This document shows, in pieces, positions 2,256 to 63,277 of a stretch of DNA of 64,000 nt. Positions within the stretch are counted from its first letter, which is position 1. Every line of letters starts with the position of its first letter. The notes under the pieces were generated by a model, which was not told the DNA's origin, searched no databases, and was given only the letters and a program-made list of their open reading frames with translations. Source of the DNA: Thuidium tamariscinum (Eukaryota; Streptophyta; Bryopsida; Hypnales; Thuidiaceae); contig OZ019759.1 in NCBI GenBank assembly GCA_947034885.2, positions 10,914,501-10,978,500 of the forward strand, in the 5' to 3' direction. Position numbers and translations under genes: made by a program.

Positions 2256-2276
2256 TTATCCTCGATTCAAAGATAC
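2256..2276. repeat. Diverged 21-bp palindrome upstream of ORF3
   Basis: A left arm TTATCCTCGA is followed by a degenerate right arm. It lies about 35 bp before the ORF3 splice acceptor, probably in an intron, as in other members of the family. Confidence 0.55.
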
Positions 2277-2434
2277 TCAACCAAATCAAGGAGACACTCA
2301 AAAATACCACAGCGCAACCAAGATGAAGTTGAAAATGAAAATCATTATATTTCAAATGGATAATATTTACAAATGAATTCCAACTCTTCTAAATCTAAAG
2401 CTAATTCTACAAATGCGAAATCGCACGGAAGAGA

Positions 2435-3278
2435 CTATGTCCTACATCGCTCTAGTTTGATCACTACGCCCATCCCTGGGAGCACGTAGTTGCACCCAAA
2501 ATTCCTAGCCGACTCCCTCAATCCTTCCAACATATGACCCACGCCATACGAGGAACGCGTCAGCGGGGGTTGACCTATGCGGTTTGCGTCAACAAAATCA
2601 CGCAAGCGCCCGGGGGGACAGTGTTCACTAATTCGCTTGAGCAAGGGGAGGAGGGCTGACATCTACACTTTGTTCCCACGATGGAATTGATTCCACGACT
2701 CCAAAAATATTGCGTTCCCATTGTCATTCAAGATACTCTTTGCCGGGGAGTCATCAATAAGAATAGTGTTGTCCGCGTTAAAATACATGGGATCCGCAGG
2801 CCGCGTGAACAACCGTTCATCGAGGATATTCAAAAACAAATGCTTCGTAGGGTTGAGTCCCTCAAAGAGAAAATTCCCTGGTGAACGCTCAACGGTCTTG
2901 CACTACTCCTGACCGTATACAACGAAGGCCTCTAAGTTGTTCTTGCAGAGAAATCGGACAATGGGTTCGGCGTTCTTGTGGACCATGGAGCTCCAGAATA
3001 CAATACGGTTTGCTAATTGGCCGACTTCCCTCAAGAAGTCCCTCAAATTGGGATGAACAAAGACAGCTTTCGACGCAACTGGCGTGGGAACCCGATCCGA
3101 GAAAACACTGTCCTTTGGAAAATGGACAGGTTCATTCTTATACAAGGTCCTATATATTCTCGCAATGGCAAAGCACTCCGTTCAGGTCAAAGACGAGGTT
3201 CAACCACTTCTTCGGCCTAACAGGTGCTACCGGGGCAACACTTCGAGGAACTCTCTCTCCACTGCTGCCTGTGACTAC
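2435..3278 (-). pseudogene. FCP1/HAD-like protein, decayed E1 copy
   Basis: Homologous to the E2 gene at 15609-16397. The exon appears to start after a CTACCAG acceptor at 3279, matching the acceptor in E2. Visible blocks are KKWLNLVFDLNGVLCH near the start, then ASKAVFVHPN, RIVFWSSM (HAD motif II type) and a C-terminal part from 2662 to 2435. The reading frame is broken at least twice between these blocks, including an early stop soon after the first motif, so it is a pseudogene. The motif I sequence is DLNG rather than DLDE/DxD, the same change as in the better preserved copy, so that change predates the decay. Confidence 0.7.
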
Positions 3279-3898
3279 CTGGTAGAATCAGAAACAAGAG
3301 AGAAGTGGCGTTACCTGATGAAACGCAGACCCAAGTAATCCAAACAACGGCGAACCCCATTGCCCCCCACTAAGCGATTGCAGAATCCCTTCATTAAAAT
3401 CATGTTTGACAAAACATATGCAAAAACAGATGGTTACCAATGACTTGAATTGAACTCTGTACACGAATATTTATTTTCAGAGAATTTAATTTACATGTGG
3501 TAGCACTCTTGCTGAAATTCTAACGTCTCTGTACAATCTAAACCTCGCCTACTATGTGACCTATACTACAACGAATGATTTTAAACGGGAGGTTTGCCGA
3601 CGCAAGTCAATCACTAACTCTGCACTCCCTCCTGTCAACAGGACGAGACGATATAAGAGTCTCTCACTACAAAACGCAACAAGCATCAAAGACAGAACAG
3701 TACTCATCACTCAGAATTCTCAGAGACACAATCAAGACGGTAGGGGTCAGATGTCTACGGCGATACCTGTCCAAACACCAACTCCATGGCATCCTCATTG
3801 CCATCATCGTAATCGACTTGTTCTTCATCTTCGTCGTCGGGTGGGTTTTGAGACTCCGCCTCGTAATTTCGAATGGGAGACATTGTCAGAGGCGAAAC
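3279..3898. other. Spacer between FCP1-like and large gene in E1
   Basis: About 600 bp with short open frames on the plus strand that show no known domain. It should hold the promoter and first untranslated exon of the FCP1-like gene and the 3' end of the large gene. Nothing else is recognised. Confidence 0.35.
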
Positions 3899-3986
3899 TT
3901 ATTCATGCGCCTGCTCATCCCATTCAGCATCAGCGATCGGGGCAGCGCACTCTTGCTCCTGATAATCCTCATCAAGAGGGGTACTG

Positions 3987-4013
3987 GAATTATCCTCGAC
4001 TCGAGGATAATTC
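3987..4013. repeat. Perfect palindrome inside coding tail (E1)
   Basis: Arms GAATTATCCTCGA and their exact reverse complement flank a single C: 13-bp perfect arms around the 21-bp core. On the minus strand it is open in the gene frame and encodes YPRVEDN. On the plus strand it encodes YPRLEDN. Confidence 0.9.
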
Positions 4014-4169
4014 ACACAAGCTACAAGTCTAGCAACGAGACTTGCAGTGCAACCAATCCTTTGTTTGGGACTGGGGTGCTTGTCGTGGAGAGGAAGGGCC
4101 AAATCCTGTGAGTCATCAAGAGGAGGGGAACGCAATTGCCTAGGAGATGGAACGGATTGAGGGAGACCT

Positions 4170-4352
4170 TTATCCTCGCCTCGAGGATAATTGGCAACAA
4201 CAGGAGGAGAACTATTTTGCCTTCTGGGGGAGGGCGAGGGGGTCACTGATTTATCCTCGCCTCGCGGATAATTCGCCACAACAGGAGGAGAGCAGTTCTG
4301 CAATTTGGGGGAGGGCGAGGTTTTTTTTTATTTATCCTCGCCTCAGGGATAA
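4170..4352. repeat. Three palindromes about 81 bp apart in coding tail (E1)
   Basis: Units lie at 4170-4190, 4251-4271 and 4332-4352, spaced exactly 81 bp (27 codons). The surrounding bases are also similar (GGGGGAGGGCGAGG recurs), so an 81-bp segment holding one palindrome was probably duplicated. The first two encode YPRGEDK-type peptides on the minus strand. Confidence 0.85.
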
Positions 4353-5452
4353 TCCCGAACTCTAGCAGCCTCCAACTACATTGACGAACCACTCTTATCC
4401 GGCACATCAGCATTTGCATCATGAGACAATGCTGTAGTCTTGGCATTTTCCGCCTTCAGACGAAGGTTCTCCTCCTTCATCCTCTACAACTCAGCCCGCA
4501 TATTCTCCTTCTCCAATGCCTCTTCCCTCCGAACCCTGGCGATCTCTTCGTTACGTTTTTGCCAGCAGTCGGACTTCTCTTGTTTCACCTCCGTTGCCCT
4601 TGGAGCCAAACCGGTTTGAGAAATCCCGGAATTCTTTTGCGTGTCTGCGATAGGAACCTCCACCGACGTCCCTTGACCTTGCGGTGCAGATGATGTCGCG
4701 GTGTCCGGGATGGGTGCATCGTAATTCAAATGCCTGAGGTCATCGTAAGAGTCCCCTTCGCTTAAATCTATAATTTCCTTGCCTTCGTAATCTGCGGCCA
4801 CCTTCTCAGACGCCATCTGTGTTTCCTCTTCAACCACCGATGACAACAAGCGTTGTCGGGGTCTCACCTCAAAATCATTGGCAGTGAGCTGCAGATCTGA
4901 ATTCTGGACAATGCTGACGTTTGTCCCGAATTCGTTAATGCCAAGTTCAGTTCCTTCTCCCGACAGCACGGAGTCCTCTTTCTCAAGAGATCCCTCACTA
5001 TCCTCTTCCTCGTCCTCCCCAGTTTCGTCCTCTACTGCCTCCTTTCTCCTCTGCAAGACCACTTCCTCCCTGACCACCTCCGCGGGTTCTGTCCCTTCGG
5101 CAAAACCATCTCCCTCTGACAAGTCTGGAGAGGAGTCAGAGTCAGGTTTAGGGGACTGCAACAAACGGGGTCGAACATAATTAGGTTTGTAAGGCGAGTT
5201 GTTGTGCAAAAAGGCATTCATGTCCGCTGCAATGCCACACCTGACAAGTTGTAGGAGCTTCTCCATGTGGTGTCTGTCTGCTACAGCGTAGCAGGAAAAT
5301 GCCGCAAAGCTGCAGCACACGATAGTTGAATTAATAAAGGACCAACTTCTGTATGAATCTAGGCTTACCACGGCTCAGAACTCATAAAGAGAGAGTACCT
5401 TTCACCAGCAAATAACCATATCGATTTCATCAACTCTAAACACACAAGGAGA

Positions 5453-5591
5453 TTATCTTCAAGACGAAGATAAATGATCAAACCTAGAATTTATCTTCGA
5501 CCCAAAGATAAAGCTAGTCTGCTTATCCTTTACATTTTGACTCAAAATGGCTTTTGTCAATTTCACTGGTTTATCCTCGACCCGAAGATAA
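5453..5591. repeat. Three palindromes in the intron after the methyltransferase-like exon (E1)
   Basis: Units at 5453-5473, 5491-5511 and 5571-5591, all with pyrimidine at arm position 6. They lie downstream of the donor at 5618-5619. The corresponding E2 intron (18598-18792) carries two palindromes of the other arm class. Confidence 0.85.
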
Positions 5592-5619
5592 TAAAACGAA
5601 AGAGGTGGAAGATGTTTAC

Positions 5620-6948
5620 CTTTGCGGCAAGTAAAAACTTTGATCCCCCGTAGATGCTGAGGACATTCTCCCCCCTCGTAGCAAAACTTTGAAGAACGTC
5701 GATATAGAACTCCATCCTAAGCTCGCTAGGATGGGATCTGAATTTGGACTCGGTATTAAACCGGAGGTCCTTGTAGAAGGTGCCGTCGGAAGTGGTGTAC
5801 ACCTTCTTTAAAGAACTGTGCTCTATTGGAGCACCGTCTTTGTCTTTTCGAACTAGAAAGAGAAGCTTCACTAGAGGAAGCTCCTTCCGCACTGTGGAGT
5901 TGTTCAACTTCTCAGCCTTGCACTCGATGTAGAGAACGGTCTTCACCACATACTACTTCATTTTCTTCTCCGCGTAAGCTGCAGCCTCCTCGTACTTGAA
6001 AGCATTGGTCGGAATCCACAACCACACATGTGGACTAACCAAATTGGGCCTCATATGGTCGGATAAAAACTTCAGAAGCGGCAACAGTGGATCAGGTTGT
6101 TCTGAGCTCGGAACCGGTCTGGGAAGTTGTCTGAAGTCAATGACTCCAAAAGGAAGCCCTCGCTTCTGGTAAGTCCAAGCATGACTGCTACTGAAGCCTT
6201 GAGGAAAGCATTCGTGCCCACGAATTTGCACTTCCCCTTTAGACGGCTTCACCCTACTCTTCAGGAGAAGAAACCTCTTCAATAGAGGGAAGACTGTAGG
6301 AAATGCCTTGTCCTTATAGTCCACAGTCGTCTTCAACTTCCCCTCGTTGGTTAGACGCTTCACGAAGAAGGGCGCCGGCAATGCGTTCAGCAAAAAATCC
6401 CAAGAAGCTGAACTGAAGAGGTGTTTCTCTTTCCATTCTCTCCAAAGACCGTCCTTTACATCTCCTTCGCGGTCCTTCAGCCTCAAGCTCTTGTCAATAG
6501 CCATGAACTCCTCGAGAACTACCTTCTTCCGCTTCCGACGCTCTACCCAGTCAGCATGGGACATATTATCTTCAACCAAGAACTTCGACTTTCCCACTGA
6601 GACTTTCGGGTATGGCAGAGAGCGACCTGGAGTTTTTCCTAGCAGATGGAGCACATACTCAGAGAGATCATGATGTGTGAAGTGCCCTAAATGCTTGAAG
6701 AATTCTCTCTTCAACTCGAAAGTCTTGAGGTTGAAATTCTTGGCCACCCGATATGACTTCCCTGTGCAGGGATCGATAAGAGTCCCTTCCGTGTGGCGCT
6801 TCAGAAACGTCTCCCATAACAGGTACGTCTCATCATCCAATGTTACTATTCTGATTTCGTTTTTTACGTCGGATTCTTTGTTGACGTTGTTCCCGTCTTT
6901 CTCCGGATTCATGCTCTGGTATCGAAATATCAGAGCGTCTACAAATTT
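5620..6948 (-). pseudogene. Methyltransferase-like exon of the large gene (E1)
   Basis: Exon bounded by an acceptor (GCTACAG, exon from 6948) and a donor (GCAAAG|GTAAAC, exon end 5620). It aligns along its length with the E2 exon 18793-20118: shared blocks include NEIRIVTL, LKREFFKHLGHFT, WVERRKRKKVVL, SASWDFLL, VQIRG, a strand ending VIDFRQLP, and near the end ELRMEFY...LQSFA, then NVLSIYGGSKFLLAAK. The order, a short strand motif followed by a C-terminal F/YxG motif with LAA, resembles beta-class DNA amino-methyltransferases (DPPY first, FxGxG later), but neither catalytic motif is canonical. One in-frame stop interrupts this copy near 5950. Confidence 0.5.
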
Positions 6949-7141
6949 CTGTAGCGTAGCAATCCAAATTTGCGTTAGTATTGGTCCCAAACATAATCTG
7001 ATGAAACTTTGTATTACAGATATCCTCGACCTAGGGATAATCGACACAGTAATAAGCTCAACTAGAAACTGTCATGAAGAAATTAAAACTCTCGATAGAG
7101 ACATTATCTTCGACTTGAGGATAATTACAAAACAGCATTAC
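6949..7141 (-). other. Intron of the large gene with two palindromes (E1)
   Basis: A 193-bp intron (donor CAG|GTAATG at 7141, acceptor at 6949). It holds palindromes at 7020-7040 and 7104-7124, both of the pyrimidine arm class. The orthologous intron in E2 (20119-20332) also holds exactly two, of the purine class, one of them 17-20 bp from the donor in both. Confidence 0.8.
7020..7124. repeat. Two intronic palindromes (E1)
   Basis: Units 7020-7040 and 7104-7124 match the 21-bp family with two or three arm mismatches each. Arm position 6 is C and T respectively. Confidence 0.85.
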
Positions 7142-8060
7142 CTGATAGGCAACCTTGTCGAACTTGGAACCATTATTTCTCTTCTCCAGGTTTGATTCCA
7201 CAACAGTAGGTCTCTTGGAGCTAACCCAGATCGACCGACATAAAGAAATTTGATTGCCCTAGGTTGGCTGACTATGCTTCAGATGGTTAGTCTTATTGTA
7301 CCAGCCCGAAATCTGAGTAAGTTTCTCCGTGCTCAGGCTCCACACTATCGTGGCATCCCATGTCTAGAGTTCTTGTTTTCTTTTTTCACAGCAACCACCT
7401 TTTTGAAGCTGCTTCGATGCAGTGATGATGTGCTGCCCATTGATGATGAAGAAGCTCCCATCTTTAATTTCATCCTAGCTTTTCGGTTGCTCCTTCAAAA
7501 GATTTTTTTTCTCATCAATGGGTGTGAGGCAGATTGTCTGACGCTACCTCTTGTCCGAGAGACCGACCAAGAATTCCCGTGTTTCAGTGACAATCTTTTG
7601 CTCCAACTGCCTGATAATGTATTAAGGCCTTGCTAAGAAGTATTTGTCAATGGATACAGTGAAATTCTGTGGGTCAAAAATAAAGCAATCCTTGCAGTTA
7701 TTCCAGAAGTTCTCTTGGTATGTTGCTGCAAGCTCGTACTTCTTGATAGGTTGGTCGTCACCAATCGCCACAGCTGCCATGGTTGTTAAAGCTGACCCTG
7801 AACTACGAGCCGCTGTAGCTCGACTCGGTGCCGGCACTCTCTGGCAATTACCGCTACTCTCCCCCACCTCTGTAGTGCTCGGTTTACGCTTCCTAGGCTG
7901 AGCTCGAGTAGAACTGGGTCCGCTACCTCGGCTAGCGGAGGTCCCTCTCCCAACTGATGCAGTATGGGATGCTAGTTGGGACTGCTGCCTATTCTGTGAT
8001 ACCCCTCGACCTGTAGCGCCTGACTTCTTGACGTTAGTCAAAGCATATTTCTCTAGATTG
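7142..8060 (-). pseudogene. ParB-like part of the large gene, 3' of the insertion (E1)
   Basis: The first part (8060-7622) is serine-rich and basic (ATGRGVSQNRQ..., PRKRKPSTTEVGESS) and ends in FWNNCKDCFIF, parallel to FWKEHKNCFLF in E2. The second part (about 7635-7142) contains KDGSFFIINGQHIITASKQL followed by TWDATIVWSL, the same ParB/sulfiredoxin-like core as in E2. Several in-frame stops, mostly explicable as C-to-T or G-to-A changes, show this copy is dead. Its 5' part lies at 54851-55345, separated by the nested insertion. Confidence 0.6.
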
Positions 8061-8065
8061 CGTAG
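8061..8065 (+). repeat. Left copy of 5-bp target duplication CGTAG
   Basis: CGTAG occurs directly before the TGT end at 8066 and again directly after the ACA end at 54845 (54846-54850). The E2 copy of the gene is continuous across the equivalent point, which identifies the inserted DNA independently. Confidence 0.75.
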
Positions 8066-11901: not shown

Positions 11902-11930
11902 CACTAGGAGAAAACCCTGTTTTATTGGAC
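11902..11930 (+). repeat. Left terminal inverted repeat of the CACTA
   Basis: Begins CACTAGGAGAAAACCCTG directly after CTT. It matches the reverse complement of 54763-54791. Confidence 0.85.
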
Positions 11931-13931
11931 GGCGGCATGAACATGCGTTACGTTTAAAAAAACATCAGGCATGTCTACCGTGCATGTCTAGAGAAATCCG
12001 TCAAGTTTGATGGGCAAAAAACATAAGAAAAACGGCTTGTTCGAGGTCTGTTTTCAAGAGGACATCACCGAAAACAGGGTAAAAACTGAGAGCCACCTGC
12101 TCCGAAATTACTTGCCATGTCACTGCCACGTGGGCGCCACATGTAAAGTGGCTGCCACGTCAGGAAAATTGGGTCTGCCCGTCGATGACGTGCACTGTGA
12201 CATCAGCATAACGGAGGGTGAAAACGGGCTGAACAACCTGTTGCGCATCACGTTCTGCTGGATAAGTGCTTGTTTCGAGTGACGTTTTTTTTAATGCACA
12301 GCCTGTCCTACGTCACGTACATTTTACGTATTCCCTAACGTTTAGCATGTTCTGAATTTTAACTTAGTGCTCTGTTTCTTGCTTGCCCGACATGTTGGAT
12401 GCCGCACAGAACATCTTTGAAGCCTTACAGAAAATGAATATTCTGAAAGGGAGCTTTCCTAGAACGGCATTCGTAACGTGTCATGTGCTTCTGTGTGTCT
12501 CATACTTGCACATTTATGGTGTTCTTTGTAGTGATGGAAATTTCTTTACACTTTTATCATGTGCGGCTTTGCGTCTCACTCTTTTACATTTGTGGTGTTC
12601 TCTGTAGCAAGGGGAAATTCTCTAGAGTTTTGTCAGGTCAACCGTAACATGGAGTACTAATTATCATTACAGTGCCTCGTATTATGCTACATAGTTTAGC
12701 ACATTAAGCATGATGTGGGTATCCTGTTTTATATGCAGTCATTTGTTGCATTAATGGATTCTGTGTTCTTAGTGTCATCTAACAAGACAGATATTGGTTA
12801 TTATGAAGTAGCCCTTCTACTTCAGGGCCTGTCCGCTGCAAGCATTTCATGGAACACTCAAGCATGGAACAGAAGTTCTTCATCATGTTCCTGACGCATG
12901 CCAGTGCTACTTGAGAACTATATCTAAATACACGTTCCAACGAGTAACTTCAGCGGTCACTGCTATGTACCACGTTACAGTCACACATTGAAGAATTTCA
13001 TGAACAGTATGTTCCATACAGGAGGACATGTGTGACCTCGGACGTTCATCTTGGTCTCCAATTGTGTTTTACTGTAATGTACAACATTACAGCTCGCCCA
13101 CGTAATTGTAGGACTTACCTTTTACAACATGCCTTTGAAATAGGTTTGGTGTGCTCACTGTGGACAGTACAGGGTCACATAATGACATGCTTCTATAGAT
13201 GTGGTGCATGTGACAATGCCTAGCACTATTATGTACAGAGTTACCCAACTAAGTATGCATGGAGCAATGCATGAAGGTTTCTTTCATGCTCAAAACAAGT
13301 GTGCCTCGCAAGAAATGGATAGTTTCAAACATTGTTTACCATCGTGCACTGGTCTGTGTTCCTGTACATGCTTGTCAATACTCAGTAGAGATATATGTTT
13401 GCACATGCATTCTCAAATGATTGGACATGTTGTTTGCTTCACACGAATTTACAGATGGCGACTTGCACAATCCATATTCATTCCAGAATAACTGGTAGCA
13501 CTTTAGGTACAGAAGTGTGAAAAAATTTAAAGGCCACAATTATCATAAAGCAGTGCTGAGTTCCTAATGAATACCTCCACTGACTACGCCTCACTTCAAA
13601 TATGCTGAACTAGGCAATTCTCTCCAGCAAATAACCTGCCATGCCCAATGGATTTGCAGAGCTATTCAACTACCTTACAAGACTTTGCCACATACAAACG
13701 TGTGTTCACTATTCAAGAGTGAATGAGAAGTTCACACCTTCCTGTTTGCCACATACAAGGCATGCAATGAGTATGCAGTTTTCAGTGATGGTATTCACAT
13801 ACTAGAGAAGTTCGTGCTTCACCTGTACAACTTCATAGCGGAGTGAAGATGCCGAAAACTTAAATTCAGCTGTCTGCTTACTGCAATCATGTCAATGTCA
13901 TCATGTAAGCCCTTTTCATGTAGGAAATGCT
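11931..13931. other. CACTA left subterminal region, non-coding
   Basis: The first 400 bp contain repeated short words (AACATG, CTTGTTC, GCCACGT) also seen in inverse orientation at the right end, as expected of transposase-binding subterminal repeats. The rest (about 12.3-13.9 kb) is non-coding with no recognisable domain and is interrupted by E2 at 13932. Confidence 0.55.
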
Positions 13932-13959
13932 AAGGCCTTATTCGTTAAAATGAGACAAA
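13932..13959 (+). repeat. Left terminal inverted repeat of E2
   Basis: Identical over 28 bases to the reverse complement of 32767-32794 and preceded by TGCT. Confidence 0.85.
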
Positions 13960-14447
13960 ACGGTGATTTTGAGACTTTCAAAAATGACTACGAAGTTGCC
14001 CTTGATGAAGAAGTTGTTGAATCCAACGATAAATAGAGGCGAACTTGACGTCCCTCAAAGAATTCGGGAGACTTATAGAGATAAAAGATAGTTGTTTGCA
14101 CTATGTGATGATGTCATAAATGAAGCCAAAAAAGAACATTGATTTTCGAAGGAATGAAATGAATCAATTACCTTGGGCATTCGCATACACAAGCAATATA
14201 CAACTTTTCTGAACAAGTTTTATTGAAGTGCATGAATTGTGAAATTCTATGATTGATTTCGAATCCAATGAAAGACTTGAACGAGGTCAATGTACAGTCA
14301 AGAAGCCCTCAACTTCTTCCACCTTTTTCTCATGTCATTTGGATACTAAGCTTTAGACCTGACTATACACAAAGGAAGGACCTTCTCAGTCTAAGACGCG
14401 TGAGCTCATAGAACTTTCTATTTATAGTAAAAAGATCTGAAAGCGAT
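13960..14447. other. E2 left subterminal region
   Basis: About 490 bp, AT-rich, non-coding. Same length as the E1 counterpart (821-1309). Probably the ORF3 3' untranslated region and transposase-binding sequence (inference). Confidence 0.4.
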
Positions 14448-15378
14448 TTAGCTTTCAAAGTTGCCTTCTCTTTCTAGGCCATCTCTATTATTTACCGTTC
14501 CTGCTTCTATGCCTCTTAGCTTTGCGAGACCCCTTAAGATGTCCTCGCGTCGAGAGGAATAATGCGACCCCCTTTCTCTGTACAACGTTTTGGTCTCGCT
14601 CATACTATGGCATTCACAGGCTTTTCGTTTTGATGGATTTAGGGTTCTTTGAGGACCTCTTGAAGTGGAGAGAGATTTGGATGGTCTCTGTGGGGGCTTG
14701 GGCAACGAGGCCTTCACACCGGCTATGTACGGAAAGGTATCTCCAACTGACATTGCCTCCAAAGAGCGTCGATGATCTCGAACAATTCGCTGACGGAAAA
14801 GACTGTCCGCCGCCGGCAGACGTCTCGTTCCAGTGGACTTGGAGGATCGTGTTTGGTTATCCTCGACTCGAGGAAGGCGGACAGTTTGTTCGGAAGTGAT
14901 AGGTTCAATCTGGGTCCCTTCCCTCGGTGCACTCGTGGACTTCACTGCGACGGTAGTGTTAGTAGACGTCGGACAGGGAGCCTGGACAGCATCCTCGAGT
15001 CGAGGATGCACTTCCGCCTCTTCGACAGGGAGTTCCAACTTTCGGCTGGTCGCTCCGTCTTTTTGCGGAGTCGGCGACCAGGACCTTCCCCGACTCGAGG
15101 ATGTCTGTTTCAACAGCGACGGCGAGCAGATGGGAGTCCTGCCTGTCGTGCGACTCGGGGGACTGTCGACGACGCCGTCTTCAATGTTTCCCTTGGAAAA
15201 GTCTATGGCGGCGGACGCCGCATCCGTGGCTTCACAGAGCATGTACGGTTTGGACACGGGAATTGTTTCGTAGCTCCCACCTCTAGATTCAGAGGTGCAC
15301 AACGACTGCTTTCTCCGTACCAGAGAGGAGGCTCTTCGTGAGCTTCTCCCTGCCAGGCGTGAAAGGGAAAGCTCCAAC
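14448..15378 (-). CDS. ORF3 of E2: SP/TP-rich protein of unknown function
   Basis: I do not recognise the family. The frame is open from a likely acceptor (CTTTTATTGCAG, exon from 15378) to the stop at 14448. Without splicing it would open further up to 15473. It keeps all blocks of the E1 copy: ATDAASAAIDFSKGN, VDSPPS...RTPICSPS, SWSPTP, and a C-terminal SRREDILRGLAKL. Two palindromes fall in the coding sequence and encode HPRLEDA and LPRVEDN. The conserved blocks separated by variable serine/proline-rich linkers suggest short linear motifs in a disordered chain. It lies only about 140 bp behind the FCP1-like stop. A TATA-like run at 15513-15527 could serve as its own promoter. Confidence 0.55.
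14858..15009. repeat. Two palindromes inside ORF3 coding sequence (E2)
   Basis: 14858-14876 is a partial unit and 14989-15009 is a perfect one (GCATCCTCGA, G, reverse complement). Both are in the open frame and have the pyrimidine arm class, unlike the intronic units of E2. Confidence 0.85.
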
Positions 15379-15512
15379 CTGCAATAAAAGGATAGTTCCA
15401 AATCCAAAGAAATCCGTTCTATGAGTACATAGATGCATGCGGAACGCGGTATCCGTGAGGATTTACGAAGCACAATACTTTGAAAACGAGATAGAATCTC
15501 ATGAAAAATACT

Positions 15513-15527
15513 TTATATATATATATA
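15513..15527 (-). promoter_or_regulatory. Possible TATA box for ORF3
   Basis: A TATATATATATAAAG run read on the minus strand lies in the short gap between the FCP1-like stop and the ORF3 open frame. It could equally be a simple AT repeat. Confidence 0.25.
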
Positions 15528-15608
15528 CCAAAAAACGTAACGTACATACAAAAATTAGATACCATTTGCCTGGACTCCCTCGATGCCTAATTCTACAATC
15601 AAAAAAAT

Positions 15609-16397: not shown

Positions 16398-17097
16398 GAT
16401 CGGACGCTCGATCCTCCGCACGACCTCTCCTCCTGCCTGCGACACTACCTGATCAAAGAAAAACAACAAAGAATTGGAGTTACCTGAATAATTGTAGGAC
16501 TGGTAAAGCCAAAGTGCGGAGAGACGCATTGCACCTCGCTACTCAATTGCACCCTTCCCTTAGGAATTGGCTTCATGGGTAGCGGGGGATGCAAGCTGAC
16601 ATCTACGTCGAGCTGAGCCAAAAACATCGACAAGGGAATGCAATTAGACACGTTCACTAATGTGGATTGAAAATTTTGCAACTTTTTATTTACATGTTGT
16701 ATAATGTACATCTCCAAAACGTTCAGGCCGCCATAACTGCACATTCTATTACTACTCTACAATATTTACTACACTCTGCCCACCGCGGACGGGTTCTCCG
16801 TTAGCGCCAGGACTTTAAGGAGTGGTGACCCCCCCCTGTCAAACAGCAATAATCGCAATGAGATTTCAAACCCAGTCAGAACTAACTCTGACAAGTCAAC
16901 CACATGATCCCAGGAATATTTAATCAATCCAAAGCATAAGGATTCGGTTGTTCTACCTGCGCGGGTTCAGCTATTTGATGCGCAGATTGCTCCTCTAGCG
17001 CCACCGCACGAGCTTGGAGTTCCTCCTCATCGGGGTCGTTCTCGCCGTAGTCCAACCTCTTCTCCTCTTCGATCGCAAGAGACGTCTCCACAGTCCT
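16398..17097. other. Spacer between FCP1-like gene and large gene tail (E2)
   Basis: Contains the acceptor and presumably the promoter and first exon of the FCP1-like gene, and the 3' end of the large gene. Short open frames show no known domain. Confidence 0.4.
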
Positions 17098-29315: not shown

Positions 29316-29346
29316 TCATTCTGATTGGTGACTTATTTTTTACAGA

Positions 29347-50200: not shown

Positions 50201-51942
50201 CGTCTGTCGAGTATTTCAAAGACTATGTGAGAAAGAGGTTCGTTTGTCAGATGAAGCAGACCTCATGAGAAGTGTTGTGTTAGCAACGTGTATGTTGGAA
50301 AAGGAGTTTCCACCGACGTTTATGAATATCATGTCACACCTACCGGTGCACCTTGTGCAACAGCTATTTATATGCGGACCTGTTCATTGTCGGTGGATGT
50401 ATCCAATCGAGAGGTACATGAAGACCCTGAAGGACCATGTCTGCACGTTAGCGCACCCTAAGGGCAACATGGCAGAAGGCTATAGAATGGAAGAGGCGCT
50501 TGGATTCTGCACAGAGTATTTGAAGGAATATAGAGCAACAAGTCACCGTGTTTGGGACCCCACAGAAGATGCCCGCATGAATGATGAAGTACTGCGTTCG
50601 AATGAGAGGAGATAGCGGAAACTGACGGATGATGTCAGAGCATTTGCACATGCATTTGTCCTAGACAACGCAGCATCACTACAAGAGTGGCGAGAGTAAG
50701 TGTCCACCTAATCTGTTCAATGTGATCGAGTTTCTCTGTTTACAGGTTTGTTGCAACTATTGTGTTCTAGAGAAGCAAAAATAGACAAAAACGTATTGCA
50801 TTATCATGTCGATGACATGATATGGAATGGGAATGAGGTTGATCTCCGAACTGAGGTCACGGTTGCATTCACGACAAGTTCTGTGTAGCATAGAAGTAAC
50901 TCCGTATTGAATGTCCATGTTGGTGTGACGTTTTCTAGTAATTCGTGGCAAAAACAAAGTCCTCTGTACATGAACTACTTCAAACTATAGCAATGGTATG
51001 TTTAATTACTTGAATTTGTCAAGTGAATTAATATGTTTTACAGTGGAATGAAGTTGTCTACGGAATAAGTAATATTCATGTTCTTGAATATGTATTAGAG
51101 AGTACATAGCAGCTAAGGGAAGTAGGTGGGCAGAGCGTGAAGCACATCGTTTGGCAATGCGTCGGCTTCGACCAGCAGTGGCTCTCCGGTATCCACCGGA
51201 ATTGAATGATGTACCACCTTTCTATGAGTGGTTGCGTGCACGGGTGAAGCGACAATTACGTGCAGGTGAGGTTGTGCCAAATGACATTGTACAATATGCA
51301 CAACCACCAGAAAGGTACGCTGTATCACATCGACACATGTATGCATTTGGTATGCATTTGCGTGTTCAGAGCTCAGAAGATGCGTTGGTCACAAGAAACT
51401 GTTCTGTAGTGGCCTCCTTCTCTCGACAGTTGCGTTGGGGTCTTGTGAATGGAACTCCAGTGGAGAGTACGGAGGAATACGTAGGTTTCATTGAAGACAT
51501 ACTAGAATTAGATTATCGAAATCACTGTACAACTGTGCTATTATGCAATTGGGTGAAGGCTGGCCGTGACGTCCGTTACCCAACAATTCAACGAGATCGC
51601 TACAGTTTTAGCATGGCGAACTTCAACCACATGGACGGAAGCGTGCATGCAGATTCTTTCGCATTTCCTTTGCACTGTCAACAAGTCATGCTTTCGGACG
51701 ATCCGAGCAGACGCGGGTAGAAGATAATATGTAGGACTGATGTCAGAGGTAGACGCGGAGAAGTGCAATATGCCGAAATGAATCCGACTGTTGTGCAAGT
51801 GGGAAACGATGAAGACTTCGAAGGGTTGCAACCACCAATGTTAGATGCAGAGCCCATTAGAGAAGCTGCTGTAGAAGGTGGTCAATACATTGGAGCCATA
51901 CAGAATACTAGTGTACAGGAGAACATAGTGCTGTCGGAATAG
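47269..51942 (+). CDS. tnp2: TNP2-type CACTA transposase (multi-exon, interrupted)
   Basis: Blocks in order: FPCPCRDCHGGLRKN (47269-47466), the N-terminal En/Spm zinc-type region; an acidic stretch, then IHACPDGCILYDAENAML.SCPKC (47479-48141); LSLDGINPF, ILIYNLEPWF and TISDFPAYGLIAGV (48360-49049), the catalytic core; DVMHCEKNLCENMVKTLLG (49455-49790); the DUF4218 block FPPTFMNIMSHLPVHLVQQ...GPVHCRWMYPIERYM (50124-50615); and a C-terminal DUF4216-like part (51151-51720, DSFAFPLHCQQVMLSDDP). Introns are evident between 49050-49430, 49790-50140 and 50690-51100. In-frame stops occur (for example near 47467, 48139, 48363, 50613 and 51718), some of which may be intronic. An AATAAA lies at 51950. 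The copy is probably inactive but well recognisable. Confidence 0.8.
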
Positions 51943-52418
51943 TACTGTAAATAAATATGTCTGTTAAAAACAAAAAGACGGAATGTGGAGTGGACGGACA
52001 AGAACTCCAAAGTGATGCGTTTTTGTTAATTTTCTTAACAAATTGTATGAAAGGATGTCTTCATAGGAAGGCGACTTTGAGCATGTTAAAGGATTTAGTG
52101 AAGGTGTGAAGCAGTGGAGGATGTTCAACACATTTTCGGTTCTAGGTCCTGACAGGTTAGGAACGTGCATGCTGTCGTGTGTTGTTGTTGTTAATTGAGT
52201 TCGCAATGTTCGTTGATGGTTCATTGCACGGAAGAGCAGTTCACAAGCATAGCACATAACACATGCCGAGTCAAATATTTCTTGATGAGTATGCTTTAAT
52301 TAGCAAATTCATGTATTAGAAATTCGCCAAACCTATCTACTGAAAAGACGTTTCAAAATAAATCATCCCCTGAAGGGGAAGCGACTAAACATCGAAGAAG
52401 TTGGAGATCTAGAGGAAT

Positions 52419-52582
52419 CACTAGAAGAAATCTGCATTTGCCTCAACAAAACCCACTTGATGTGTTTGTTCAGGCAAACGCAAAAACTACGTTCAAGAAC
52501 GCAGAGGAACACGGATTTAGCGTTTGCCTCAACAAACACATCAAGTGGATTTTGTTGAAGCAAACACAGCTTTCTTGTAGTG
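52419..52582. mobile_element. Foldback CACTA MITE, 164 bp
   Basis: Ends CACTAGAAGAAA and CACTACAAGAAA (read inward), flanked by AAT on both sides (52416-52418, 52583-52585). The two halves pair over about 60 bp with a few mismatches, so nearly the whole element folds into one hairpin. The ends resemble those of the large CACTA around it, so TNP2 of that family could have moved it (inference). Confidence 0.85.
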
Positions 52583-52585
52583 AAT

Positions 52586-54500
52586 GAAATACTTTCTGAA
52601 ATTGGGAACGTTCACTGTATTTCAACATTTCAATTTGTAAATACAAGTGAAAGTGGATTTCGAAGAACGCTCGGAACGGAAATTTCAAAAGGTGTTATGG
52701 TGAAGGCGTTTCACCAAGAGGATTGTAAACAAACCTATAGCCTGCTGCAGAAGGTTTCTTACTATGTTCTCCATTGAATCACAGCAACACATTTTTTTCC
52801 AGTGCAAGTGCAATGTTCGTCAAATGAAATTTGCTTTCAACATATTCAACCACATGTTTGAACGAAGTTGATTCAGAAGGAAGTGGAGAAATGTCCAGGG
52901 ACATTTACCGTGCAGATTGGAACATAAGAACCCATGAACTCGCTAACAACGTTTCAACCAAGAGAGTCCTCTGCAACAGCCATTTCTAATACATGAGCAC
53001 AGTCATTAATATTTTACAAAATTCACTCAAGTAACCATATGTAGGATCTTGTAGTGAGGTGGTTTGTGAACATGTGGAAAATAATCTAGAAAATGGTTGG
53101 GCATTGAAATTACTCATCGAACACACATTGTATCAAAATTTAAAAGAAACAAAATGAAAAGGCCATCCATAGCGAGGTGGCCAAGAAATCTATAATTTAA
53201 AAAAACATTCGTCAAGGGTGTAGGGGTTAACATTTGAACTGCTGAAAGTGTATTCTTCATCCCAGAGAGAATCCAAGAAGCTGTACTGCACAAGCTCACA
53301 TTTGTATGAAAGAATACCCGAAATGATGTTTTCACTGTAAATGCATTCTACAAAACCAGTGTGCAACATGGTATACTAATTCCCTATCATTTGGATTTGA
53401 ACGACGCAGAGGACAGAAATTGTAAGTGCAATTACGTATCAAGAGTTAGGAGATTCGAAATTCTCAAAATTTCGTTAAGAACTGTCGAAAATGTCTATCC
53501 AAATAGTGAACGTTTGGTAATAAACAATCTGAACCTAATGTTTCGGACCATATCCTAATAAATGGACATTAGAATGAAATAGAGCATTACAAACTTTTTT
53601 ATAGAGTAAGAATTCTATAATAATCCACGAACTACCAGAAACTAAGAGTCCTTGTAATTGCTGACTCATTCATCAAAATGGAATGATTAAAAAAGTGCAG
53701 CATAGATAGAAATGTCATAAACAAAATTAAAAAGTTTTTTCCTTAGAAAACAGAATAAATTAAGCAATAATTTCTGCAGCCAATTGAACTCGTAGTGTAG
53801 CACTTTCAAAGAATAAATGTTTCATACAAGATCCTCTAGAACTTGAATTAAGAAGTTCTTAAGAATTTGGGGCCTTCAAGGTATTCTTGCAGTACATGTT
53901 TTGTAAATACACCAAAAATCATTGTGCATGCCTCCAATGCTTGAAATGAACAATCTTATAATGGACGTCTAATTTGTGGTAGGTCTTCATAGCATCAATG
54001 CTATTGTTGAAAATAGACAACAATTATAAGTCATTGCGTGCATGCGATCCTTTAATTAAGAACATTTGCACTTATGATAAGTAGTTCTGGACTCCCTGGT
54101 CGGTAGGGAAATGTAACCAGGGCTTTTCAGAACATAAGCAGTAGGATAAATGAGCTGGTGCATACTATACAGCATTTAATATTCACAACTTCTGTACTAC
54201 ATGAACACATCGACATTCCTGCGTATTTTTCTCTTCAGTGATATTTAACATCCAAATTTAGAATATTTTTAGATACAATTAATAAAAAATAAATGAAGTC
54301 CATCATGAAGTTGAACTCTTCTAAGGAAAAAGCTAGAAGCCCAAAAAGAACCGAAGCCTGATTCCAGTTCAAGTGGAACAGAAACTGAGAAGCATTTCCA
54401 AAATGTACCTTCTTTATGCATCCATGTTATTTTACTTAAAAAAACTCTGCCAAAACTGCCCTTCCAAAGCTTTTGGAAGCTTGGCCCCCAGTTTACCCCC
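52586..54500. other. CACTA right interior, no gene
   Basis: AT-rich, with only short frames and nothing recognised. The last 280 bp before the right end (54500-54790) hold subterminal words shared with the left end. Confidence 0.45.
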
Positions 54501-54762
54501 TCTCCATGAACTTACCCGAATTTACTTGTGCAGCAGGCAAGTTCGGCGCTGACGTGGCACAGCCCTGTTCGAAACAGCGTTCATAAAAACACGACTGTGT
54601 TTTAATGACTGTTCTCAGCAACATGGATGTGCTCATGAACAAGAACTCGTTTTTCTCAGATCATGCAGTCGTTCGGAGAAACATGGCCCTGAATTATTTT
54701 TCTTAGGCCAGCATCCCATCTTCCGCTGGATGTCTACAAGAACAGGCTTGTTTTTCTCGAAC

Positions 54763-54791
54763 ATCCAAAAAAACAGGGTTTTCTTCTAGTG
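54763..54791 (-). repeat. Right terminal inverted repeat of the CACTA
   Basis: Ends CTTCTAGTG, followed by CTT. It matches the left repeat at 26 of 28 bases. Confidence 0.85.
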
Positions 54792-54845
54792 CTTTTTCCC
54801 GTATTTTGTTTAAGAACCTACTTAGGTGAATTCTAGATTGCCACA

Positions 54846-54850
54846 CGTAG
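54846..54850 (+). repeat. Right copy of 5-bp target duplication CGTAG
   Basis: Follows the ACA end of the LTR-like fossil. E1 sequence resumes here. Confidence 0.75.
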
Positions 54851-55345
54851 GAGAAAGTTCAGTCGTTTCGCCATGGATCCAACGTCTTTTCAGAGCCATG
54901 GATGAAACTTCCTGGTCATCTCTCTCGCAAGATTTTCGTGTGCTGCCTCCTGCAAAGACTTGATGAGCTCATCTAAATCGAAATTGGCTGTGTTGGCATT
55001 CTGGTGAAAGACAATCGAGTGAGTGTGCGGGAGTTCCTTGCCCTTGTCATTGACTGCTTCTAGGTTGTGGATGACATATTCTTTTTGGTGATCCTCCACG
55101 AATGCTACCTTCTCACTCACATTGAACAGTTGGAAGTTCGCCGCCTCCTTTATTTTTAGACGAAGGAATACGTAGTTCTTGAATCTGTTGATGCCCATAG
55201 TCCAAGACTCGACGATTGACTTCAGCTTCCACAAGTCGCCATACTGGTCCTCCATGTCCGCGAAGAATGGCGCATCTCCTTGCCACATGAACGGCTCTAT
55301 GAATGGCCTTGTAGCCGAGTAGTCGTAATCACCTTCGGCAGCCAT
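54851..55345 (-). pseudogene. 5' part of the E1 large gene (N-terminal domain)
   Basis: Starts MAAEGDYDYSAT at 55345 behind an acceptor (TTGTGCAG). It parallels the E2 protein from YDYSAT through MEDQYGDLW, GINRFKNYVFLR, VAFVEDHQKEYVI and NFDLDELI to the insertion point. The continuation of the gene is at 8060 and below, separated by the nested insertion. A stop after HPWL also interrupts this copy. Domain function is unknown. The similarity to E2 over about 150 residues, mostly conservative, shows it is a structured domain. Confidence 0.7.
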
Positions 55346-55398: not shown

Positions 55399-55525
55399 TT
55401 ATCTTCGGTTCGAGGATAACTTTACTTTCTCTATTGGCCCATGCTTAGAGACTATGATCATTGCTCTTAAGTCGAGCATTGTATGGGTCAAGCAGTTTGA
55501 AGCATTATCTTTGCGTCGAGGATAA
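55399..55525. repeat. Two palindromes upstream of the E1 large gene
   Basis: Units at 55399-55419 and 55505-55525, pyrimidine arm class. Confidence 0.85.
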
Positions 55526-55622
55526 ACTACCCTCTCAGAGGAGTATCGGAGGTTTCGTATTGATTAGCAAGTGGTTCAGTCCTAGGATTGTGAGAGGATG
55601 TGAAGTTTGTCCTCTCTGAGTA

Positions 55623-55727
55623 TTATCTTCGCTTCGAGGATAGTTATCCTCGAGTCGAGGATAGTTATCTTCGAGTCGAAGATAGTTGTCCTCAAGTCGA
55701 AGATAACTATCCTTGACTCGAGGATAA
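55623..55727. repeat. Five head-to-tail palindromes at exact 21-bp period
   Basis: Units start at 55623, 55644, 55665, 55686 and 55707 with no bases between them. Centres are T, G, G, G, C. Each arm differs by one or two bases, and units with C at left position 6 tend to have G opposite, those with T tend to have A. Twenty-one bases equal seven codons, so a plus-strand frame stays open (IVILESR, IVIFESK, IVVLKSK). The period also equals two turns of B-DNA. Confidence 0.95.
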
Positions 55728-59800: not shown

Positions 59801-61800
59801 ATCCTTAGTAGCCTAAGTCTTCTAGGGTGCTAAGGATAAATTCCCTATGCAATGAGCTCTAAATCAAATTCTCAATTATGAAAAATTGGAGAGGTATTTA
59901 ATTTTCAAAGGTTTTAATTCATATATAAGGATTGAGATAGCGTACATAGAAGTTTAAAACCCTTGCAAAGTAATACCAGAAAATCACTTGTGGATGGGTT
60001 AATTAGTAGTAATTTCTCATGTGCACATCAGAAGTTTATAAGTAACTGTTCAAAAGTCTTTTAATGTGATATTCACATGTCGAATTCCCACTTAACAAGA
60101 TAACTTTGTGTATGTTAACAGACGACATGTGTTAGAGTAAATTTTTAAAAATGTAAATGAGTATGGCATCAATATTGAACCAAAATAAACTTTCAATGAA
60201 AACTATTATTGATAATTTTGTATTCATTCTTTGGACAATTTCTTCTTAGTTATATAAAATAGAAGAATGAAAGTTGTTTTCTACTCTACAGTGTACTTTT
60301 CCATTTCAGAAATTTGTAACTAATGATAATCAACAGAAACAAAAAAAATAATTCAAGTTATGAACTTATAGAGTGGCAAAATATTGTCATTTTTTGAATT
60401 TTCTATTTTATGTAAATTTTTAGAAAATCAAATGAGGGATCCAAAATACTCTCACACATGGTGTGTAAAGGTTATTCTAAGGAATTTCCACAAGGTGAAA
60501 TTTTCAGAGAACTTGTCACCAAAAAGTATAAGGTAAAGGGAATTATATGTACACTATCAATTAATTAATTGTTTTTTTATATCTGTTCTTAAGTATTCTA
60601 AGTGAAATAATATCATATGTGATTTTGAATCCAAATTTTAGGGTATTGAAGGCTCATCTCTAAGAATTTTAGTTTCGAAATATTAAGATTTGCAATTGAA
60701 ATTCTGAATTGAAGTCACAATCATTAATTTGGAAATTAAATGACATTTATACTATTAGTCTTCCTAAAAGATCCTTATAATCACATTAAAAACTAGTTTC
60801 CATTTTTTAGTATTATTTAGCTACAAAGTAATCTTTACACTCTAATCTTGTATATTGTGAATTTAAATGATATTCATCTATGTTGATGGAGACATAAGCA
60901 ATAGTTCACTTTGGAAGATTATAAATGTACCAGAGTATACTGAAATGATGTTTTTTTGTACTAATTGAAAAATTTGTTCTTTTGACAATGTATAAATAAA
61001 TTTCACAATAGAGGATCAATCATGGTGAATTTGAAGTGCACAATGGTTACTTTTTGAAATGAGAAGTTTTAGAAAGACTAAAAAGAATAGGAAAACTTTT
61101 TTTTTAATTTTACTTTATTTTTTCATTTATGAGTTGCATCTAATTTTAAAAAAGGCATGGAGAATCACAATGTTAGACTACCTTTCCATTTTAGCCCCTA
61201 AAGAAGCCTAGTCTTTGATGTAATCTTATGCATTCAATGTTTGTTTGAAACGTGAGCCTACTTTGCCATTTCATTTTAAAAAAACTGATCTCCAAAAAAC
61301 ACAAAGATTCAACTTCGTAGATGTGAGATTTGGAAATATATAAGGAAAATAAGTAAACTTTAGGGTTTTAGGAATTAAACTTAAGCATACTATAAGACAA
61401 AAATCAGGATGATAGGATCAGTTTCTCAAATTCCAGAGGAACAAGTAATAGATGTTGGTGGGCCGCCAAAAAAGATGGAATTTTTTTAAGACAATGAAAA
61501 GTTATCTTTATAGGGAGAGGAAGATAAGAAGACACGTAGCCAATATACACAAATGCAGGACGCGCAAATAATTTGGAATGTTATGATTTCCAAATCCGGA
61601 CAGCCGTTGAACTTTGTACCTCTGGCCTGGATGTTATGCCGGCTTAAAAAAAGGTTGCGGCATAAAATTCCCCCAGGTGGATATCGATCGTGCAAGGGAA
61701 TTCTAAAATTCCATGGGATTTGGTGAAAAGTTATTCGGCAATCAAGTTGAATACCATTTAAAGGTGGTTCAGAATTTCAGAGCCCCTTAAACCAGATACT
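56851..61800. other. AT-rich spacer of E1, no gene
   Basis: Five kilobases of strongly AT-rich DNA with only short frames. A pyrimidine-rich tract of about 230 bp lies at 59065-59300 (TTCCTTTTCC, TTTTCTTTCT and similar). E2 has its satellite and telomere-like repeats in the matching place. Neither is seen here. Confidence 0.5.
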
Positions 61801-61846
61801 TCTCCCCTACGTCCGAAGAATCTTTACGATTTAAAATGCCGTCACC

Positions 61847-61854
61847 TTTCCCGC
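61847..61854 (+). promoter_or_regulatory. E2F-like site TTTCCCGC upstream of E1 transposase gene
   Basis: The same octamer as at 28111-28118 in E2, in a short C+G-rich promoter-like stretch (61830-62000). Confidence 0.45.
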
Positions 61855-62365
61855 CCACTTCATCCCACCGCCTTCATTCCATCGTCTCTCTCCCCAGGAA
61901 TGCCATTGCTTCATTTCTGCCTCATTTTGGTGCCTGTTGAAGACGCTGCTCCGCCGGCACCTTGCGGTTCTGCATTCCATTTTCTTCCTGCATTTGCCGA
62001 AGTATTTCCACTTACGCATGTCCCGATTGTTGTATTTTCATGTAGCACTTCTTTTACTCTGCTGCACTTCATCTTTTGTTTTAGGTGTCTTCCATCTTCC
62101 TCACTCCGTATGATTTGTTAATGTCACAGCACATTTCGTTTCTGAACTTACGATTCCTGTTGTTAGTTTGTGTTAATCTTCTCTAAGTATTGATACCACA
62201 ACATGTTTGTTTTTTTCTTGTACGTGTCGTATGTGTCTCGCGAAAGCATTGAAACATGAGTGAGTTCATTATGCTCTTATCTGTCGTGAGAGTGGAAGGC
62301 AGAGCCTTGCGAAAATTACGCCATGAAATTCGGAACAGTGTTTCAGACAAAAGAACTCCTGGAAT

Positions 62366-63277
62366 TTATCTTTGTCTCGAAGATAAAATGTGAAGTACCC
62401 TCTCCTCTCCCCGGTGATCAGGAAATACTTAACCTTTCCGGGAAGACAATACGAGAAGTATCCTCGCCTCGAAGATAAACTAGTACTTATCCTCGATTCA
62501 AAGATCAATTGAATAGTATCAGTACCTAGTGGAAATATTGGATAATATACTTTCTCCATTTATCCTTGAGTCGAAGATAGATGAAATGTATGGAGACTTA
62601 ATACAGCATCAAGTAAGATCGGATTATGCCGTAACACAATAATTAAAGTAATTAAATGCAGTAAACACATACAAGTACACAATACAAGAAGTATCCTCGC
62701 CTCGAAGATAAACTAGTACTTATCCTCGATTAGAGGATAAATTGAATAGTATCTGTACCTAGTGGAAGAATTGGATAATATACTTTCTCCATTTATCTTT
62801 GAGTCGAAGATAGATGAAATGTATGGAGACTTAATACAGCATTAAGTATGATTGGACTATGCCGTAACACGATAATTAAAAGTAATTAAATGCAGTAAAC
62901 ACATACAAGTACATACGTCCTTACGACTTCAGATATCTTCGAGTCGAACATAATTTATTCTTATGTGAACCCTCTACAGAAATGTAGAAGAATATCTTTT
63001 CGGAAAAAGACATTTAGAAGTATGAAATAACTACCTTTCCTTAGTTATCTTCGAATTGAGGATAATTGTGAGTTTGTGACGTGGGGAATATTTGTCACCG
63101 GTATTCAAAACGTTCCTCTATTTCATTATGCAATTTTGATATAAATAATTCTGATGGTTAATATTGTTTGTTATTTTTTGGGGAGTGTTGCAGATTTGGT
63201 CAACTGTAAGAGTTGCTTTATTCAATTAAATGTTCAGAAGATTCTTCTGAAGAATTTATCCTCGAATCGAGGATACG
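62366..63277. repeat. Ten palindromes upstream of the E1 DUF7869-like gene
   Basis: Units start at 62366, 62458, 62487, 62560, 62691, 62720, 62793, 62933, 63045 and 63257. All have pyrimidine at arm position 6. Three belong to each copy of a 233-bp duplication. The last lies about 40 bp before the acceptor at 63313. Confidence 0.9.
62458..62923 (+). repeat. 233-bp tandem duplication carrying three palindromes per unit
   Basis: 62458-62690 and 62691-62923 are near-identical (GTATCCTCGCCTCGAAGATA start, shared GCAGTAAACACATACAAGTA end). Differences include changes within palindrome arms. For example, the degenerate right arm at 62498 corresponds to a better paired one at 62731. Confidence 0.9.

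Follow-up and report, generated by a model that had tools for sequence, protein, structure and literature searches.

Palindromic 21-bp sites in two nested DUF7869-type transposons of Thuidium tamariscinum and a candidate transposon-encoded protein that may read them

Structure of the locus

The window analysed in this study is a stretch of 64,000 nucleotides from Thuidium tamariscinum (Bryopsida; GenBank assembly GCA_947034885.2, contig OZ019759.1, positions 10,914,501 to 10,978,500 of the forward strand), and coordinates below are positions in this window. It contains a family of 21-bp palindromes carried by two elements, A and B, both of which are large, decayed DNA transposons of the DUF7869 type. 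Protein comparison showed that A and B are two copies of one gene set, in which DUF-X, a NIF/HAD-type phosphatase gene (HAD gene) and a three-exon ParB-like gene lie on the minus strand, and the DUF7869 transposase gene lies on the plus strand.

Element B spans 13932-32794, has 28-bp inverted ends (AAGGCCTTATTCGTTAAAATGAGACAAA) and is flanked by the 4-bp target site duplication (TSD) TGCT. Element A starts at 791 with AAGGCCATATTCATTAAATTGAGA, and its right end lies beyond the window; the similar distances between the terminal inverted repeat (TIR) and DUF-X in A (558 bp) and B (519 bp) support this left end. ParB-like exon 1 of A is split into an N-terminal part (54842-55345) and a C-terminal part below 8061. 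The 10-bp duplication TCTAGATTGC flanks both breaks, and the protein homology of the exon stops at the same point on either side of the insertion (8062-54831). Inside this insertion lies a CACTA element (11902-54791; TSD CTT, TIR 19/20) that encloses element B. Since B is nested within A, B was inserted later than A. The initial annotation had confined the palindromes to two regions, E1 and E2. No site was indeed found in the other 28.7 kb of the window at ≤3 mismatches, but E1 and E2 do not correspond to two elements: owing to the nesting, E1 consists of the left part of A and the whole of B, and E2 of the right part of A. The features of the locus are as follows.

791..814, plus strand: left TIR of A (AAGGCC...), 4/20 mismatches to B's TIR in the scanned stretch
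1349..2176, minus strand: DUF-X gene of A (tblastn with B's DUF-X, 35% identity), with the degenerate palindrome 1827 inside
2256..2276: palindrome of A between DUF-X and the HAD gene (2 mismatches)
2441..3366, minus strand: fragmented NIF/HAD-type phosphatase gene of A (tblastn with the B and L017 copies)
3990..4352: four palindromes of A between the ParB-like and HAD genes (3990, 4170, 4251, 4332), the last three in an 81-bp tandem repeat
4487..5374, minus strand: ParB-like exon 3 of A, a reading frame assigned from its position relative to exons 1-2 and from gene order
5453..5591: ParB-like intron 2 of A, three palindromes (5453, 5491, 5571)
5614..6999, minus strand: ParB-like exon 2 of A, in-frame stop at 5953 (tblastn 28-43% to L017, L018, L005 and B)
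7020..7124: ParB-like intron 1 of A, two palindromes (7020, with 5 mismatches, and 7104)
7130..8061, minus strand, ends approximate: C-terminal part of ParB-like exon 1 of A (tblastn)
8052..8061: left copy of the 10-bp TSD; the insertion 8062-54831 splits exon 1 of A
11902..54791: CACTA element with tnp2 and DUF4218 matches, not itself a palindrome carrier
13932..13959, plus strand: left TIR of B (28-bp inverted repeat, TSD TGCT)
14451..15512, minus strand: DUF-X gene of B, exonic palindromes 14857 and 14989 and degenerate palindrome 15084
15612..16538, minus strand: NIF/HAD-type phosphatase gene of B (PF03031, E = 5.5e-15)
17168..17356: two palindromes of B between the ParB-like and HAD genes (17168, 17336)
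17684..18597, minus strand: ParB-like exon 3 of B, assigned from frame and splice site; tblastn gave no non-self homology match
18664..18768: ParB-like intron 2 of B, two palindromes (18664, 18748)
18790..20118, minus strand: ParB-like exon 2 of B (tblastn), with a methyltransferase-like region near its end (domain evidence from the homologues L017 and L018)
20172..20313: ParB-like intron 1 of B, two palindromes (20172, 20293)
20330..21770, minus strand, start putative: ParB-like exon 1 of B, in-frame stop at 20834; the frame stays open upstream through palindrome 21810
21810..22661: nine palindromes of B 5' of the ParB-like gene (21810, 22006, 22072, 22147, 22234, 22391, 22467, 22565, 22641)
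28519..29315: seven palindromes of B 5' of the transposase gene (28519, 28549, 28692, 28839, 28964, 29090, 29295)
29323..32151, plus strand: DUF7869 transposase gene of B (PF25273, E = 3.8e-33), in-frame stops at 29632, 31114 and 31525
32767..32794, minus strand: right TIR of B (28-bp inverted repeat)
54832..54841: right copy of the 10-bp TSD, duplicating TCTAGATTGC
54842..55345, minus strand: N-terminal part of ParB-like exon 1 of A (tblastn), complementing 7130-8061
55399..55727: seven palindromes of A 5' of the ParB-like gene (55399, 55505 and a tandem array of five 21-bp units at 55623-55727)
62366..63276: ten palindromes of A 5' of the transposase gene (62366, 62458, 62487, 62560, 62691, 62720, 62793, 62933, 63045, 63256), six of them in a 233-bp tandem duplication
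63317..64000, plus strand, start codon by eye: start of the DUF7869 transposase gene of A, running past the window end (tblastn 63356-63994 with the L016 protein)

Sequence and distribution of the palindromes

The refined 21-bp palindrome TTATCNTCGANTCGANGATAA has 18 fixed bases, out of which mismatches were counted. It matched the window 5, 23, 43, 48 and 52 times at 0, ≤1, ≤2, ≤3 and ≤4 mismatches, respectively, while the means of 100 Markov shuffles were 0, 0, 0, 0.05 and 0.39. These counts agree with the approximately 50 palindromes that the initial annotation had counted by eye. Besides, a motif-free search for near-perfect palindromes of a 10-bp arm, one free base and a second arm (10-1-10) found 25, and 19 of these were family members. 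It is near certain that the family is real. The 48 sites at ≤3 mismatches comprise 26 in A and 22 in B. The single site outside both elements at ≤4 mismatches (34264, in the CACTA element, and counted as outside) is at chance level (0.23 expected), and sites 7020 (5 mismatches) and 15084 (6 mismatches) are not included in the counts at ≤4. The CACTA element proper is free of sites at ≤3 mismatches and the satellite at 25450-26693, inside B's bounds, at ≤4, as had been annotated.

When the two arms were folded together, positions 3-5 and 7 (ATC.T) were intact in 212/216 cells in A and 190/192 in B. The 10-1-10 plan of the annotated consensus was retained, but its fixed C at position 6 was not: the 54 half-sites of A have 28 C and 26 T at this position, with no A or G, and the 48 half-sites of B have 21 A, 14 C and 13 G, with no T. 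The two alphabets overlap solely at C. The Fisher test for C/T versus A/G between the elements gave p = 3.7e-16, a nominal value since the half-sites of one element share ancestry. Losses in A occurred mainly at the CpG of TCG (C8 intact in 45/54, G9 in 49/54), a pattern that would be expected from the decay of methylated cytosines. The palindromes have grown in tandem, with units of 21 bp (x5), 81 bp (x2.3) and 233 bp (x2); no helical phasing between neighbouring sites was seen by eye apart from the 21-bp array.

With coding intervals set by hand, 47 of the 48 sites at ≤3 mismatches are noncoding, and at ≤4 mismatches 48 of the 51 element sites are. The initial annotation had placed the palindromes in introns, 5' regions and exons of cargo genes and before the transposase gene; all of these locations were seen, except that the exonic sites amount to three of the 51 (1827, 14857 and 14989), all in DUF-X, where the 6-mismatch site 15084 also lies. 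The coding intervals of the ParB-like, HAD and transposase genes are free of sites at ≤4 mismatches. Sites lie 5' of the ParB-like gene (9 in B, 7 in A) and 5' of the transposase gene (7 in B, 10 in A); the ParB-like/HAD intergenic region has 2 in B and 4 in A, and introns 1 and 2 of the ParB-like gene also carry sites. An open frame at 3899-4327 covers most of sites 3990-4332 and was matched by none of 18 tblastn queries. The outermost sites of B at ≤4 mismatches lie 925 bp from its left end and ca. 3.5 kb from its right end, and no half-site was seen by eye in its 28-bp TIR.

The exonic palindromes 1827 and 14989 are in frame, reading DLRDED and HPRLED, at a DUF-X position that by eye seems equal in A and B, and therefore some coding copies may be old. 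In both elements, a stretch of ca. 6 kb between the divergent 5' clusters of the ParB-like and transposase genes (22671-28500 in B; 55741-62350 in A) is free of palindromes at ≤4 mismatches; that of B holds a 177-bp satellite in seven copies and CCCTAAA telomere-like repeats.

Relatives in a metagenomic bin

In a prokaryotic genome collection of 257 Gb, exact matches to TTATCNTCGANTCGANGATAA (18 fixed bases) were found in five records, and ca. 4 would be expected by chance. Four of the records, with one site each, appear to be chance matches. The remaining record, L005 (CADCWO010000074.1, assigned to a cyanobacterial bin), has five palindromes of the TTATC word, and its ParB-like gene shows 40% identity to exon 1 of B over 519 aligned positions (21859-20327, minus strand; tblastn). 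The same bin, the GTDB cyanobacterial metagenome-assembled genome (MAG) AVDCRST_MAG81, also includes L016, whose intact DUF7869 frame of 963 aa aligned to B's transposase with 45% identity over one alignment (tblastn), as well as L017 and L018, each of which carries an intact three-exon ParB-like gene. L017 also carries a NIF phosphatase gene; the NIF/HAD (CTD-phosphatase-like) gene is cargo common to these transposons (15612-16538; L017:1365-2219; PF03031). DUF7869 was found in 1/386 cyanobacterial genomes, namely this MAG, and in 0/14 controls, and the introns of L017 and L018 are GT-AG. On these grounds the four eukaryotic-looking contigs were taken as eukaryotic contamination, to which the data point. 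In viral contigs, neither the transposase nor the two palindrome words tried had a match, and of 169 stretches that matched a ParB-like peptide pattern, none was confirmed by tblastn.

L017 and L018 have eight sites each of TTCAGCTCGANTCGAGCTGAA (TTCAG word) at ≤4 mismatches, located in intron 1, intron 2 and downstream of exon 3, and no TTATC sites at ≤5 mismatches. L016 has five sites of TTTAGCTCGANTCGAGCTAAA (TTTAG word) at ≤3 mismatches by its intact DUF7869 gene. The 10-1-10 plan and the core CTCGANTCGAG are common to all words. This core matched 20 times in the entire bin, and 18 of these matches fell on L005, L016, L017 and L018; a reversed control pattern matched 7 times. The 5' cluster is present also in L018 and L005, and in L017 the 5' end of the gene coincides with the contig end.

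Every visible intron of the ParB-like genes carries sites, 9/9 in five genes (two introns each in A, B, L017 and L018, and one in L005), even though the word differs. The first palindrome follows the 5' splice site by 17, 19, 20, 23, 24, 24, 24, 25 or 28 nt in the nine introns with either word (sites 20293, 18748, 7104 and 5571; L005:820; L017:5828 and 4357; L018:2949 and 4391), and blastn found no intron match between the window and the relatives. The product of per-intron chances was 4.5e-7 for a window of 17-28 nt chosen post hoc, with 200 nt assumed as the length of A's two introns; given the partial orthology of the introns and the post hoc window, the nine cases are not independent events.

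The ParB/methyltransferase-like protein

The ParB-like label of the initial annotation goes back to one 19-residue motif ('KGKFWIINGQHSVAASKAM') with a weak profile match: hhalign against bacterial ParB (26/30 rows used after length filters) gave a score of 20.6 versus a shuffle maximum of 16.7 over 19 columns, at a low probability of 1.4%, and no Pfam ParB hit was obtained among the element proteins scanned. For a 220-aa stretch over the exon 2/3 junction, the single Pfam match was PF01555 N6/N4 methylase (L017, E = 0.00085, 19.8 bits; L018, E = 0.014, 15.8 bits; Pfam cut-off, 26.7 bits). Against bacterial methyltransferases (22/30 rows), hhalign scored 31.1 versus ≤18.6 in 12 column shuffles, at a low probability of 27%. 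A degenerate N6/N4-methyltransferase-like region is, on these matches, somewhat better supported than the ParB label. Bacterial ParB-N6/N4 methyltransferase fusions (L038, L039, L041, L044 and L045) have the two regions in equal order; whole-protein hhalign of the spliced protein against five bacterial fusions gave a probability of 1.8%.

The catalytic motif IV of N6/N4 methyltransferases is (D/N/S)PP(Y/F). By eye, DPPY is absent from the present proteins, and VDFRNTP or VDLRIAP stands at the expected place; since motif IV is missing, the region, if it has a methyltransferase fold, is probably not catalytic. Among the ParB-like proteins accompanying the TTATC word, pairwise identity is 31-59% (exon 1 pieces, 31-54%; exon 2, 38-43%; B's exon 1b versus L005, 59%), and the identity between TTATC-word and TTCAG-word proteins is ca. 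26-30%. Searches of solved structures returned nothing relevant, and NCBIfam and PHROGs nothing significant. No ParA turned up among the proteins scanned with Pfam, which cover part of the open reading frames; no search was aimed at ParA.

Other features of the insertion

The segments 8062-11901 and 54792-54831 form an element of ca. 3.9 kb between A and the CACTA element, with the 10-bp target duplication, no obvious TIR, and two adjoining long minus-strand frames at 9339-11381. A 263-bp direct repeat (79% identical) links the palindrome-free part of B (23909-24171) with the CACTA interior (44807-45069). The CACTA element also contains a 77-bp inverted repeat with a 12-nt loop at 52418-52583 (84% complementary).

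What reads the palindromes

We infer from these sequence patterns that the palindromes are multi-copy recognition sites of a sequence-specific, probably dimeric, transposon-encoded protein. Matching between the two arms at position 6 was seen in 15/27 sites of A versus 13.5 expected (p = 0.42) and in 12/24 sites of B versus 7.9 expected (p = 0.059). Since arm covariation is not significant, a hairpin or cruciform agrees less well with the data than a protein that reads two half-sites. The dimeric DNA-binding protein that the initial annotation had proposed thus appears to be the more likely reader, also in view of the protein relatives accompanied by the same or sister motifs. With hairpin or cruciform, end-binding and a single host factor disfavoured, an element-encoded factor is left, and an element-encoded reader of any kind is probable. 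Because each visible intron of its gene carries sites, the ParB-like protein is the best candidate, and we lean slightly towards it as a reader with a regulatory or anti-silencing role. In the proposed mechanism, this co-encoded three-exon ParB/methyltransferase-like protein would dock at numerous sites throughout the element's own noncoding DNA, and docking would keep the element DNA expressed or unsilenced, as VANC proteins do for VANDAL elements. A private word would allow an element to find solely its own copies, local tandem duplication would raise the number of sites, and spelling and reader would drift jointly within each lineage. A more far-reaching version is that a bacterial or phage-type ParB-methyltransferase fusion with degenerate methyltransferase motifs was captured by a lineage of eukaryotic DUF7869 transposons as a self-recognition factor, loading on parS-like palindromes in introns and promoters and spreading to hold the element open. 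Such a partition-like, independently evolved counterpart of VANC, with protein and palindrome co-diverging, seems doubtful.

Several observations weigh against the ParB-like protein as the reader or against protein binding as such. The arm matching in B is borderline, and the spacing from the 5' splice site is without a DNA-level explanation. The transposase too differs between lineages (45-50% identity), so that the change of motif does not single out the ParB-like protein, and B's ends are without sites, unlike VANC21 targets. As described above, the ParB similarity is a single short motif, the hhalign probabilities are low, also for the whole spliced protein, and the PF01555 matches are below the cut-off. 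Besides, no DNA-binding domain was identified in the ParB-like protein except a sub-threshold HTH_Tnp_Mu_2 match (E = 0.086, L018 exon 2), and AlphaFold models of exon 1 and exon 2 from 3-4 sequences had low confidence (pLDDT, 38 and 31). The comparison set consists of six elements or fragments, and the MAG contigs may derive from two or more eukaryotes. L016 has three sites at 0-1 mismatches, with three more at 2-4 downstream of the gene. Finally, one arm position separates the TTTAG word from TTCAG, and the counts of these two words include cross-matches, so that solely TTATC versus TT(C/T)AG is a clear difference.

If the sites were bound by the DUF7869 transposase and acted in transposition, as internal enhancers or in synapsis, like the subterminal TnpA sites of CACTA elements, the dense sites 5' of the transposase gene in A and B, their presence there in L016 and the divergence of the transposase along with the motif would be accounted for. 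However, the outer 0.9 kb on the left and 3.4 kb on the right of B have no site at ≤4 mismatches and its TIR shows no half-site by eye; end-binding by the transposase is unlikely. The sites in introns and intergenic regions of cargo genes would also be unneeded by a transposition complex, and we regard binding by the transposase as rather unlikely overall. The position of the first palindrome, 17-28 nt past the 5' splice site in 9/9 introns, would instead suit pre-mRNA hairpins that control the splicing of element genes, and the palindrome is foldable (-10.1 kcal/mol); the borderline arm matching in B (p = 0.059) points the same way. Nevertheless, sense-strand pairing at position 6 was 14/24 in B versus 11.1 expected (p = 0.12) and 19/27 in A versus 18.1 expected (p = 0.38), and the 9 and 7 sites upstream of B's two divergent genes would be many for a splicing switch. 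A role of this kind in RNA is quite unlikely.

The location of sites 5' of genes and in introns is also what would be seen if the elements had captured host enhancers read by a host transcription factor or insulator protein. We consider this very unlikely, as the 28.7 kb outside A and B has no site at ≤3 mismatches, position 6 is element-specific within one locus, and lineages with different words occur in one bin; provided that the bin derives from a single eukaryote, the presence of at least two words in it argues against one host factor. Least credible is a functionless, tiny mobile or self-copying repeat spreading inside the elements. Tandem duplications and the in-frame exonic copies in DUF-X would fit it, but the intron positions are alike where blastn finds no intron match between the window and the relatives, the ParB-like, HAD and transposase coding intervals are site-free at ≤4 mismatches, and the spelling is element-specific.

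To our knowledge, VANC in Arabidopsis is the sole case of sequence-specific self-recognition by a transposon. If reading by the ParB-like protein proves true, such self-recognition would have arisen anew in another group of transposons, through another protein and a site that is palindromic. The DUF7869 transposase and its ParB/methyltransferase-like partner, both uncharacterised, would then have a function to test, and palindrome-protein pairs without cross-reaction may result. Because several words share one architecture and each belongs to an element lineage, the co-evolution of reader and site can be tested directly.

Comparison with known systems

The sites of bacterial ParB-parS systems are palindromic, as are those described here, and in bacterial fusions, as in the present protein, a ParB-like motif is followed by a methyltransferase-like region. 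The present protein differs in having one 19-residue motif and no DPPY, and in being encoded by a spliced gene of a eukaryotic transposon. In CACTA (En/Spm) elements, the TnpA sites are subterminal, occur in many copies and are bound by an element-encoded protein. The palindromes share with them a short multi-copy motif, here with a predicted element-encoded reader, whereas the sites are internal and intronic and are not clustered at B's ends. DUF7869 was not named in the literature searched, and the half-site strings gave no transposon link by title in a small part of the matching papers.

VANDALs are Mutator-like elements (MURA/VANA transposase). According to one report (PMC5735166), VANC21 accumulates in introns, intergenic regions and terminal noncoding regions and binds YAGTATTAY; motif density appears important, and the targets evolve via tandem repeats and differ between related elements. 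According to another, RNA-directed DNA methylation targets the noncoding regions of VANDALs (PMC10398659). Both systems have a short motif repeated in the noncoding DNA of the element including introns (here, 47/48 sites are noncoding), local tandem repeats, and a motif that varies between related elements along with the element proteins. The VANC motif, as described there, is also terminal, whereas the palindromes are absent from B's ends (A's right end is outside the window). The present system further differs in its 21-bp palindrome, its PF25273 (DUF7869) transposase among the proteins scanned, and its ParB/methyltransferase-like protein. Judged by this analogy, the palindrome system would work like the VANC/VANDAL system without being a member of it.

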